Origin: Bordetella genomosp. 2
GTDB lineage: Bacteria; Pseudomonadota; Gammaproteobacteria; Burkholderiales; Burkholderiaceae_B
Direction: 5' to 3'
Length of the DNA: 64,000 nt
Assembly: GCF_002261345.1 (NCBI RefSeq)
Contig: NZ_NEVT01000003.1
Span: forward strand, 310,001 to 374,000
Shown here: positions 18,861 to 21,749 of the stretch, one piece after another
How positions within the stretch are numbered: position 1 is the stretch's first letter
Layout: each line of letters opens with the position of its first letter
Position numbers and translations under genes: made by a program
Notes under the pieces: model-generated
The model's input: only the letters and a program-made list of their open reading frames with translations
Databases searched by the model: none
Told to the model about the DNA's origin: nothing

Positions 18861-19247
18861 CGCCGGCGCCAGCCGCCACCTGTTGTGACTGCGGGGCGCG
18901 CGCATCGTCGATGCCCGTCGTCCGGGCGCAGCCCCGCCGCCGCGCGCCACCCTTTTTGTGGCGGCGGCGCGTCAAAAGATGAAAATTAGATTGAATTGAG
19001 ATATTTAGGAAAGATTTTGAATCTGGGCTAAATATCATTTATTCGGAGATATTGATTTCAAATAAAAGCGTCATTATTTCGGGCATGGATTGCTGATTAT
19101 TCATTTGCATTTCAAAAGCATTGAAAAGTTGGTTTCCGGGCCGTAGTTGTTTTCCATCCGCGCAGATACGATCGCCGGGCATTCAGTTGTTTCGTGGGCC
19201 GCAAGGCCGAATGCCATTGATTTATCGACTCGAATGGAAAGTTAATA
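18861..19247. other. Non-coding AT-rich leader upstream of the Hint gene
   Basis: This is the longest gene-free stretch in the window, 387 bp. The first 115 bp are GC-rich like the rest of the genome. From about 18975 the composition falls sharply: runs such as GAAAATTAGATTGAATTGAG and TAAATATCATTTATTC dominate. No ORF with coding character or RNA gene is evident. The AT-rich part probably holds the Hint gene promoter and may be a nucleoid-protein silencing target. I could not fix a -35/-10 pair with confidence. Confidence 0.5.
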
Positions 19248-20843
19248 ATGGCGAAAATAACCCTCGGCCCATGGCCTCTCTCGAATACTCAGGATGTAGA
19301 TCAATCCGATTATGTCGGTGACACGCTGACCGTTGATACGATTATCGGAAATTCCACCATCAATATTGCCAATTCCAGCGGTTCCGATGAAACCTTGATG
19401 CTGAAATTGACGCGCCTGAGCCCGATCGGCGGTACTACCACGGTGAATATCGGGGAAAATGCCCACGTAGGCCTGGCGGAAGGCTTCGATTTCAGCATCG
19501 GGCAGGTCAATAATTTCAATCTTGCCGATGGCGCGACGCTGCAGTATTCGTCCGCCACCTTCTCGGTGGGCGGCCTGAATTCGGCCAATTTCAACCTGGG
19601 GGCCGGCGGCCAGTCCACGCTGATCTACGACCCGCAGGGCACCGACCTGACCCTGTTCAACAGCACGCCCAAGGTCAGCGGCCTGTCGGCCGGCGACCAG
19701 ATCCAGGTGCTGGGCGCCACCAGCGGCAGCGTGGAAGGCAGCGAACTGGTGTTCCGCGATGCCGATGGCAGGGTGCTGGGCCGGTTCAACGCGGAAGGCG
19801 AGGATCTTTCCAAGGTCGTGTTCGAGAACGGCGTCATGACGTACGCCTGCTTCCTGAAGGGCACGCACATCGCCACCCCGGACGGCGAAGCGGCGGTGGA
19901 AACGCTGCGGGCCGGTGACCGCGTGCTGACGGCGGACGGCAAGGTCGCCACCGTCAAGTGGGTAGGCTACCGCAAGCTGCACAAGGCCAGGATCCCGGCG
20001 CGCGACGCGGTGCGGGCCTTCCCGATCACCTTCCAGCGCGGCTCGATCGCCGACAACGTGCCGCACCGGGACCTGTGCCTGTCGCCGGGGCACCATGTCT
20101 ATTTCGACGGCCTGCTGGTGCCGGCCATGGCGCTGGTCAACGGCCAGACCATCGTGCAGGACTTCAAGGTCTCCACGTTCGAGTATTTCCATGTCGAGCT
20201 GGAAGAGTTCGGGATCCTGCTGGCCGAAGGCCTGCCGGCCGAGTCGTATGTCGATACCGGCAACCGCTCCATGTTCCAGAACGCCGGCGAAGTCGCCCTG
20301 AACCCCGATTTCGGCCCCGCCACCGGCCGGCCCGACATCGCCGGGATCAAGGTGGTGCAGCAAGGTCCCCAGGTGGAGGCCATTCGCAAGCGCCTGCTGG
20401 CACGCGCCGCGTTGCTCAGCGGCGCCCGGCTGGTCAAGGATGCCGAGCTGTGCCTGATGGTCGGCGCGCAGCGGGTCGATTGCGGCGCGCCATGCGACCG
20501 GGACGGCATGTACCGGTTCGCGTTGCCGGCCGGGCTGCACGACGATGTGCGCATTGTTTCCAACAGCGCCGTGGTGCGCGACGTCTCGGCGCATGCGCGG
20601 CGGGATCTCCGCTGCATCGGCGTCGGTATCGTCGCCCTGTCGATCGAGACGGCCGACGGCGTGCGCAGCATTGCCCTGGATGATGCGGCGCTGCAGGGAT
20701 TCCATCCCGTGCAGGATGTGCATGGCGTGAAGATGCGCTGGACCACCGGCGAGGCCCGCATTCCGGCCGCGCTGCTGCACGGCGCGACGGCGATCGAGGT
20801 GCACGTGCTGCGCACCTATCAATACTGGAAGAAGGCCGCCTGA
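19248..20843 (+). CDS. Hint (Hedgehog/intein)-domain protein of unknown function
   Basis: This 531-residue protein has three parts. Residues 1-200 are rich in N, G, T and S with recurring short strands (TINIANSSGSDE, TTVNIGENAHVGLAEG, NFNLADGATL, NFNLGAGG), suggesting a beta-solenoid. Residues 201 to about 345 are a Hint_2-type domain: C201 opens ACFLKGTHIATPDGEAAVE, then LRAGDRVLTADGKVATVKWVGYR, LCLSPGHHVYFDGLLVPA and a closing SYVDTGNRSMF. Residues 346-531 are a second globular region ending RTYQYWKKAA. Hint folds cleave or splice at their first Cys. No splicing C-extein is apparent and no signal peptide is seen. It is followed by a terminator-like stem and the winged-helix gene. Confidence 0.8.
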   Translation: MAKITLGPWPLSNTQDVDQSDYVGDTLTVDTIIGNSTINIANSSGSDETLMLKLTRLSPIGGTTTVNIGENAHVGLAEGFDFSIGQVNNFNLADGATLQYSSATFSVGGLNSANFNLGAGGQSTLIYDPQGTDLTLFNSTPKVSGLSAGDQIQVLGATSGSVEGSELVFRDADGRVLGRFNAEGEDLSKVVFENGVMTYACFLKGTHIATPDGEAAVETLRAGDRVLTADGKVATVKWVGYRKLHKARIPARDAVRAFPITFQRGSIADNVPHRDLCLSPGHHVYFDGLLVPAMALVNGQTIVQDFKVSTFEYFHVELEEFGILLAEGLPAESYVDTGNRSMFQNAGEVALNPDFGPATGRPDIAGIKVVQQGPQVEAIRKRLLARAALLSGARLVKDAELCLMVGAQRVDCGAPCDRDGMYRFALPAGLHDDVRIVSNSAVVRDVSAHARRDLRCIGVGIVALSIETADGVRSIALDDAALQGFHPVQDVHGVKMRWTTGEARIPAALLHGATAIEVHVLRTYQYWKKAA

Positions 20844-20850
20844 GGCCGAT

Positions 20851-20876
20851 GTCCCGGCCGCGCCAGCGGCCGGGAC
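20851..20876 (+). terminator. Strong hairpin after the Hint gene
   Basis: GTCCCGGCCG (20851-20860) pairs perfectly with CGGCCGGGAC (20867-20876) across a 6-nt loop. It starts 8 bp after the Hint gene's TGA stop. Only TTCG follows rather than a T-run, so it may be an RNA-stability stem or a weak terminator. Confidence 0.55.
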
Positions 20877-20942
20877 TTCGCCGCCAGGAGGCGTTGGCGT
20901 GAGAAGGCCCGTCCCGGGCCGCGGTGTCGCCGGGGCGGCCGG

Positions 20943-20966
20943 CCTGCAATCACGGTATTTTGCAGG
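20943..20966. promoter_or_regulatory. Inverted repeat before the winged-helix regulator
   Basis: CCTGCAA (20943-20949) and TTGCAGG (20960-20966) are separated by 10 bp, ending 12 bp before the GTG start at 20979. It could be an operator; the binding protein is unknown. Confidence 0.35.
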
Positions 20967-20978
20967 CAGGCAGGTAGC

Positions 20979-21749
20979 GTGCGGAAAAGAACCAAGTACA
21001 GCGCGAAGATCCTGATCTGCTCGGATGTCCGCGCCGCAAACCTCATTGCAGATGGCTTGACCGCCCTGGGCTGTCCGGCCCGGGTGTATCGGGAAGACGA
21101 ATATCCGCTTGGCGACGGCCGCGCCAGCCGGCGCGTCATTGTCTGCGCGCCGCCGCCGCAGCGGGCGCTGGCGGCGGCGGGCGATATCGTGCGCATCCGG
21201 CCCGACGCCTTGCTGATCTGTGTCGGCTATGACCAGCACCTGGGCACCCGGCTGTTGTTGGCCGGCGCGGACAGCTGGATGCCGCTGCCCGAAAGCGACC
21301 TGCTGGTTTTTGCGATGCTGCAGGCGCTTGACCGCCTGCTGCGGCGGCGCGCCGGGCGGGATGCGGCGGACGACCGGGGCCTGCCGGCGGCGACAGCCCG
21401 CGCGCTACGGCTTGGCGCGGCGCGCCAGCGCCCGGCCGGGAACGCAACCGGCGCGGCGGGGGCCTGGTGCCTGTCGAAGAACAATGCCCTGATCGCGCCC
21501 GATGGCGCGGGCGTGGTGCTCTCCGCGCAGGAGGCGCGCCTTATACGAGGCTTCTTGCGCAGCCGGGATCACATCGTCATGAAGGGCGACCGGGAGATTT
21601 TCGGCGGCCATGCGCTGGCGGCCCGCTCCACCGCGCTGATGATCAGCCGCCTGCGGGCGAAGTTCCGCAGGCTCGGCGCCGAGCTGCCGATCAAGTCGCT
21701 CTATGGCATTGGCTACCGGTTCCACGCCCCGCTCGAGGGCGAGGCGTGA
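20979..21749 (+). CDS. Winged-helix (OmpR-type) protein with degenerate receiver domain
   Basis: This 256-residue protein starts at a GTG. Residues about 8-120 have the alternating pattern of a receiver domain (KILICSDVRAANLIADGL, VIVCAPPP, ADSWMPLPES). The phosphorylation residues are missing: no acidic pair ends strand 1, CAPPP stands where the phospho-Asp belongs, and no Lys is in the LPES segment. Residues about 170-252 are an OmpR/PhoB winged helix (LSAQEARLIRGFLRSRDHIVMKGDREIFGG; ISRLRAKFRRLG; LYGIGYRFHAP). It should bind DNA without classical phosphorylation. It follows the Hint gene on the same strand and may regulate it. No histidine kinase is nearby. Confidence 0.75.
   Translation: MRKRTKYSAKILICSDVRAANLIADGLTALGCPARVYREDEYPLGDGRASRRVIVCAPPPQRALAAAGDIVRIRPDALLICVGYDQHLGTRLLLAGADSWMPLPESDLLVFAMLQALDRLLRRRAGRDAADDRGLPAATARALRLGAARQRPAGNATGAAGAWCLSKNNALIAPDGAGVVLSAQEARLIRGFLRSRDHIVMKGDREIFGGHALAARSTALMISRLRAKFRRLGAELPIKSLYGIGYRFHAPLEGEA

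Follow-up and report, generated by a model that had tools for sequence, protein, structure and literature searches.

Several described systems come close to the protein considered here. B-type bacterial intein-like (BIL) domains possess the intein motifs apart from the C-terminal one, and N-terminal cleavage has been described for them in the accessible part of PMC7765530. In Hedgehog proteins, the C-terminal part recognises the acceptor (PMC7765530, PMC7664689), and TibC glycosylates both TibA and AIDA-I (PMC4358343), again according to the parts of these sources that are accessible. The same holds for two reports on Hint domains: the listed mutations of a cellulose-overproducing mutant include a missense change that affects a functionally uncharacterised Hint domain protein (PMC11999647), and the Hint_2 family (PF13403) was listed as enriched in fast-growing marine bacteria (PMC12487129). 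Here, we analyzed a Hint protein (P0001) of Bordetella genomosp. 2, encoded in a stretch of 64,000 nucleotides (contig NZ_NEVT01000003.1, positions 310,001 to 374,000; hereafter the window). Judged by its sequence, P0001 has a previously unstudied three-part architecture, i.e. a variable front, a Hint_2 domain and a conserved C-terminal domain (CTD). As the leading reading, held with evenly divided confidence, we propose that the Hint domain cleaves at Cys201, that the front is the product, and that the CTD targets the reaction to a surface glycan. The parts of the protein are as follows (positions within the window):

19248..20843, + strand: Hint protein gene (P0001), 531 aa, variable front, Hint_2 and CTD
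19248..19847, + strand: front, residues 1-200, all-beta, predicted beta-solenoid, fast evolving
19848..20258, + strand: Hint_2 domain, residues 201-337, PF13403 match
19848..19850, + strand: Cys201 codon, presumed acyl-shift nucleophile, with the presumed scissile site between Ala200 and Cys201
20091..20093, + strand: His282 codon, block B [ST]-x-x-H motif, here S279-P-G-H282
20268..20840, + strand: CTD, residues 341-531, with D453-x-R455-x-x-G458-V459 ... R497-W498-T499 and C-terminal Ala-Ala

The Hint_2 model matched with 140.1 bits (cut-off 28.4) over model positions 2-146 of 147, in agreement with the original prediction, an earlier reading of the letters of the window, which had let a Hint domain start at C201. 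Both C201, at Hint position 1, and S279-P-G-H282 are intact in the window protein; a TxxH motif is also present in Hedgehog (Hog). The nearest match among PDB sequences was the BIL domain 2lwy (E = 1e-5). For the front, the beta-solenoid suggested earlier reappeared in the structure model, in which this part is all-beta. No Pfam family matched the CTD above cut-off (the best was DUF7024, E = 0.013, in one or two members), its profile retrieved nothing better than ribosomal uL6 (E = 0.29) among PDB sequences, and P0001 had no match in NCBIfam. The predicted model shows the CTD as a beta-sandwich, at low confidence and with weak coverage of the CTD by the fold search.

Copies of the protein were collected from its own family (f1). 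At E ≤ 1e-20, P0001 had matches in 14 of 250 f1 genomes and 4 of 43 genera, and at E ≤ 0.001 in five of the nine genomes of its own genus. The sample consisted of 30 full-length copies from 13 genomes, including the window copy. As the search scored at most five candidates per genome, the family holds at least 30 copies and further unlinked ones may exist. Left out were copies shorter than 500 aa or lacking the CTD, a degenerate paralog, L084, which at 654 aa differs from all others, and L067 (same gene as L006). All 30 copies displayed a front of about 190-230 residues, then Hint, then a CTD of about 190 residues, with mean pairwise identities of 0.40 for the front, 0.74 for Hint (residues 201-340), and 0.57 for the CTD. 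Invariant residues were C201, S279, P280, H282, H315, E317, E332, Y334, and D336. The Hint domain of the window protein ends with D-T-G-N-R, where the Asn is variable (TGD, TGH, TPH, and VGD occur in the alignment). A C-terminal His-Asn with a following Cys, Ser, or Thr (the intein splicing motif) is not conserved at this position in the alignment, and splicing is therefore not expected. At the end of the protein, the last residue was Ala in 30 of 30 full-length copies (Ala-Ala in 27), following a linker of variable length.

A profile of the CTD matched in five of 398 Pseudomonadota genomes, one of them that of the window. In another family (f51, probably the Acetobacteraceae), it yielded 370 matches in 80 of 120 genomes and 70 of 102 genera, with up to 21 copies per genome. 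A single match spanned Hint and CTD in 39 of 41 open reading frames of f51, a set containing some near-duplicate loci; the remaining two are frameshift-split halves of one locus (L134). We also aligned 22 f51 proteins of full length, which are encoded at 20 loci and belong to the matches with better scores. Their invariant residues comprised C201, H282, H315, E317, E332, Y334, and D336 in the Hint domain as well as D453, R455, G458, V459, R497, W498, and T499 in the CTD, and position 279 was Thr in 21 proteins and Ser in one. Identity to the window CTD was only 25-28% in four aligned f51 rows. The presumed catalytic residues, C201 and the block B His, are thus strictly conserved in 30 of 30 f1 and 22 of 22 f51 proteins, despite strongly differing fronts. 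When seven f51 proteins were scanned against Pfam, one each contained, above cut-off, an AIDA stalk, RTX repeats, and an endo/exonuclease-phosphatase (EEP) nuclease domain; the other four had no Pfam match besides Hint_2. One f51 Hint-CTD protein (L144:7953-9209) has a front of just 76 residues, rich in Gly, Trp, and His.

The border between front and Hint domain also stood out in comparisons of paralogs. In two pairs (L049/L053 in genome G077 and L051/L055 in G152), DNA identity was 49-62% in the fronts, rose to 93-100% per 100 bp between the Cys and stop codons, and fell to 22-53% past the stop. Upstream, the near-identical segment began 6 bp ahead of the Cys codon in one pair and 24 bp ahead of it in the other; downstream, it ended at the stop codon. 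Other compared paralog pairs had a milder identity step at the Cys codon, or none. By these identity profiles, the Hint-CTD module has been gene-converted or recently copied under another front, twice, in different genomes, i.e. it has been exchanged as a cassette with an edge at the Cys codon. Such natural swaps mark the module edges to within a few codons. Three solitary Hint copies (L053, L054, and L055) each stand 3′ of a GAF/LytTR-like regulator gene in the same direction; the name of the regulator is our own reading of its sequence.

For the genomic context, PF05159 (KpsC/KpsS) was searched in 30 genomes and the positions were compared with those of the Hint genes. By this comparison, 10 of the 13 genomes (G000, G004, G008, G016, G077, G100, G137, G152, G178, and G188) have one copy that is no farther than 20 kb from KpsC/KpsS. 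These 10 of 30 copies lay at distances of 0.5-18.1 kb, eight of them within 6 kb. The binomial chance of this is about 2e-10, assuming p = 0.02 per copy and treating copies as independent, which orthologs are not. Because of shared descent, the independent evidence consists rather of three genera (g1, g9, and g40) with differing gene orders. In a tree of the Hint-CTD part, the g40 capsule copies except that of G100 formed one clade (100/100), and the capsule copies of g1, g9, and G100 fell outside it; long branches were present. Genes of the kps type were found in 13 of 13 genomes with the Hint protein versus 9 of 16 genomes without (Fisher P = 0.007; 10 of 16 if a marginal hit is included). 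This comparison excludes G007, where all Hint proteins are short, and places G010, whose one PF05159 hit is marginal (E = 9e-4), among the genomes lacking kps genes. In the window's own 5.0 Mb genome (G000), a paralog with 58% identity to the window protein is encoded 5.6 kb from KpsS on contig C5. Its gene is flanked by a ManC-like gene on one side and by two glycosyltransferase genes on the other, and farther along lie a degenerate Hint-CTD paralog, KpsS, and KpsC. Except for PF05159 matches, gene names in this cluster are our own reading of the sequences.

A 19-bp palindrome, CTTTCCNNATGGGAGAAAG, was found upstream of the capsule copies in G000, G004, G008, and G016 as well as of the single copies of G205 and G233. 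With at most one mismatch, it occurred at six sites in the 30 genomes, one per genome, all of them upstream of Hint genes and 84-220 bp before the called start. With equal base frequencies, chance alone would produce about 0.85 sites, and a reversed control pattern gave one match (in G137). No such site was present upstream of the window copy or of the g40 copies. Through the shared palindrome, the g4 copies are connected with the capsule type. The regions are:

L102-L107: CTTTCCNNATGGGAGAAAG regions upstream of the Hint genes in L070, L071, L056, L004, L058, and L072

At two of these loci, small proteins of 86-120 aa with zinc-ribbon-like cysteine pairs are encoded next to the Hint gene, after it in L070 (9109-9405) and on either side in L071 (8019-8279 and 10854-11216).

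In f51, glycan-related genes of another kind were observed. A TibC-like autotransporter heptosyltransferase was encoded near the Hint gene in three of the 20 loci, and at L138:776-7387 the TibC-like gene ends 3 bp before an AIDA-stalk-Hint-CTD gene, in an apparent operon. Seven of 31 TibC_1st hits, at five sites, were no farther than about 5 kb from a listed Hint-CTD gene. Among the f51 genomes tested, TibC_1st was detected in 17 of the 30 that were positive for Hint-CTD and in 2 of the 20 that were negative (P = 0.0008); the test covered 30 of 80 positive and 20 of 40 negative genomes, and the positives had been chosen mostly for strong or many matches, a possible bias.

Autoprocessing at C201, which would release the front or pass it to a nucleophile, had been suggested in the original prediction, and the invariant residues together with the cassette edge make it the leading idea here as well. 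Hint_2 would perform the first step of intein chemistry, an N-to-S acyl shift at the Ala200-Cys201 bond assisted by His282, yielding a thioester on the C-terminus of the front. As a conserved C-terminal His-Asn and a +1 nucleophile for splicing are lacking, this thioester would be resolved by an outside nucleophile. The beta-solenoid front would be the functional product. The CTD may guide the precursor to the site of the reaction and to the acceptor, which is most likely capsule or some other polysaccharide of the surface, in a role like that of the Hedgehog sterol-recognition part, which brings cholesterol to Hint. Differing fronts would be placed on one exchangeable Hint-CTD cassette, which could serve as a reusable unit for processing and targeting. 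We infer the cleavage itself, the resolution of the thioester, the ligand of the CTD, and the cellular site; a surface glycan as the place, and perhaps as the acceptor, is suggested by the gene neighbourhoods.

A number of observations weigh against this proposal, with export as the largest gap. The 30 copies all lack a signal-peptide-like or membrane segment; the highest Kyte-Doolittle mean over 19 residues was 1.48. For the type I secretion adaptor TIGR01843, 10 of the 13 genomes, among them that of the window, gave no match at E ≤ 1e-40 among the candidates scored. In the window's genome, TIGR01843, TIGR01842, and TIGR03375 had no match at the thresholds applied among 40 of 49, 32 of 188, and 26 of 189 candidates scored, respectively; HlyB-type exporters were not searched. 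The capsule link is also incomplete. The window copy itself lies outside the capsule cluster (on contig C8, with the PF05159 genes on C5), and its closest matches (62-63% identity) are copies unlinked to capsule genes. Altogether, 20 of 30 copies are not capsule-linked, the Hint gene and the capsule genes are on different contigs in G205 and G233, and in G005 the only Hint sequence close to KpsS (3 kb) is a fragment. Since kps genes also occur in genomes without the Hint protein, the protein is not required for a capsule cluster. Most f51 loci had no recognised glycan gene beside the Hint gene, and TibC_1st was absent from all 13 f1 genomes. Finally, in the degenerate paralog of the window's genome (L004:15865-17397, contig C5, - strand), Cys201 and His282 are replaced and the CTD is kept. 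Catalysis is hence not always needed. The paralog also hints that the CTD may act together with polysaccharide machinery in the cytoplasm.

What happens to the presumed thioester is the point on which the next two explanations differ. In the first, water resolves it, the front is freed as a soluble matrix or surface protein, and the CTD is an export or folding aid only. Plain hydrolysis draws on the same conserved catalytic residues as our proposal, some fronts are of secreted kinds, and B-type BIL domains, which do not have the C-terminal intein motif, are described as cleaving N-terminally in the accessible part of PMC7765530. By itself, however, it accounts neither for the capsule linkage nor for a CTD that is about 190 residues long and has an invariant core, and we regard it as possible, though on balance somewhat unlikely. 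A bolder version of the leading reading is a built-in sortase, in which the CTD would dock on nascent or exported polysaccharide and a hydroxyl or amine of the sugar would take over the front from the thioester at Ala200, anchoring it covalently to the capsule. This appears unlikely to us at present. If true, it would amount to a bacterial version of the cholesterol transfer by Hedgehog, with sugar replacing sterol, and neither a signal peptide nor a type I exporter would be needed if the conjugate left by the capsule route. Because fronts are swapped on a shared cassette, a strain could then display different fronts with one anchoring device. Alternatively, the Hint domain might be a structural linker that does not cleave, the whole protein binding capsule or surface through its CTD. 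The capsule-cluster paralog, which has lost both catalytic residues and retains its CTD, and whose gene end shares 4 bp with the start of a glycosyltransferase gene, would fit such a role. We nevertheless consider it quite doubtful, as the other proteins, 30 of 30 in f1 and 22 of 22 in f51, retain Cys and His.

Two further explanations involve the neighbourhood of the gene in the window:

18975..19247, + strand: AT-rich leader, 41% guanine plus cytosine (GC) over 300 bp 5′ of the Hint gene
20979..21749, + strand: winged-helix protein (P0002), 256 aa, degenerate receiver-like front, neighbour only

In many polymorphic toxins, HINT is located just ahead of a C-terminal toxin (PMC3482391, accessible part), and P0001 might likewise free a toxin against which the next gene protects the cell. 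Here, however, the C-terminal part is the more constant one and the front is variable, the reverse of polymorphic toxins, and the next gene resembles a DNA-binding regulator that stands beside no other fetched copy. No immunity-like gene was recognised downstream when neighbours were inspected; no search of immunity families was made. This scenario seems extremely improbable. The original prediction had instead combined the Hint gene and its neighbour, taken as a pseudo-response regulator, into a two-gene islet possibly acquired by horizontal transfer. The drop in composition at about 18975 is real, and the other eight genomes of the genus have no close relative of P0002 (best rows 28-37% identity), as might be expected for such an islet. 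GC recovers to 0.66 by 19500, however, and over most of the interval it does not differ from that of the adjoining DNA. Moreover, in 30 of 30 full-length copies GC was lower in the 300 bp upstream than in the locus (a difference of only 0.01 in L056) and lower in the first 300 bp of the gene than in the CTD part. The AT-rich leader is therefore a habit of the family, and acquisition as an AT-rich islet is not supported. For P0002, the reading as a receiver-like protein devoid of phosphorylation residues agrees with inspection, by which the phospho-Asp and Lys positions are not kept, and no receiver-domain match was obtained up to E = 1; its winged helix matched Trans_reg_C weakly (17.8 bits, below the cut-off of 26.2). 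A search of 781 crudely called open reading frames of the fetched Hint loci (phmmer, E ≤ 1) returned P0002 only, and winged-helix relatives with about 25-37% identity occur in nine of nine genomes of the genus (including L036-L042). P0002 is thus a neighbour only, outside the conserved context of the Hint family, and a two-gene system appears very improbable. The capsule-cluster paralog, the conserved CTD, and the wider family had not been part of the original prediction.

That prediction had also stated that no function is described for bacterial Hint_2 proteins of this form, and we found none in the literature searched, which did not cover most subscription papers. The CTD, the capsule link, and the cassette exchange are not described in the accessible parts of PMC7664689, PMC7765530, PMC2362128, PMC3482391, PMC11999647, PMC12487129, PMC4236516, and PMC4358343. 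These proteins now offer new handles, namely a conserved partner domain not named in Pfam, a predicted cut site, a capsule context, and cassette swaps. Transfer of the front to polysaccharide, if it takes place, would constitute a new mode of anchoring proteins on the surface of bacteria and might be put to use for protein-glycan ligation. Cleavage alone would already concern hundreds of proteins, given the 370 CTD matches in one family.

Compared with known systems, residues 201-337 cover nearly the whole Hint_2 model far above its cut-off, but the Pfam model spans the Hint part only and not the CTD. By its motifs, the protein resembles B-type BIL domains and may belong to them, with Cys1 and blocks A and B present and no C-terminal His-Asn; the accessible part of PMC7765530 mentions neither a CTD nor a capsule link or cassette exchange for BIL domains. 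The C-terminal His-Asn that the same part of this source gives for A-type BIL domains is missing from the window protein. Hedgehog proteins have the same order of functional front, Hint, and C-terminal part; they differ in that the proteins considered here are bacterial and that the CTD showed no homology to the sterol-recognition region in the PDB sequence search or in the fold search, which covers the CTD weakly. The f51 gene with an AIDA-stalk front, placed 3 bp after a TibC-like gene (L138), recalls AIDA-I and TibA with their BAHT heptosyltransferases, but Hint-CTD takes the place of the autotransporter beta-barrel, and the 13 f1 genomes have no TibC_1st. Polymorphic toxins with HINT likewise contain an autoprocessing Hint within a large modular protein, whereas in the family described here the C-terminus is constant and the front varies.

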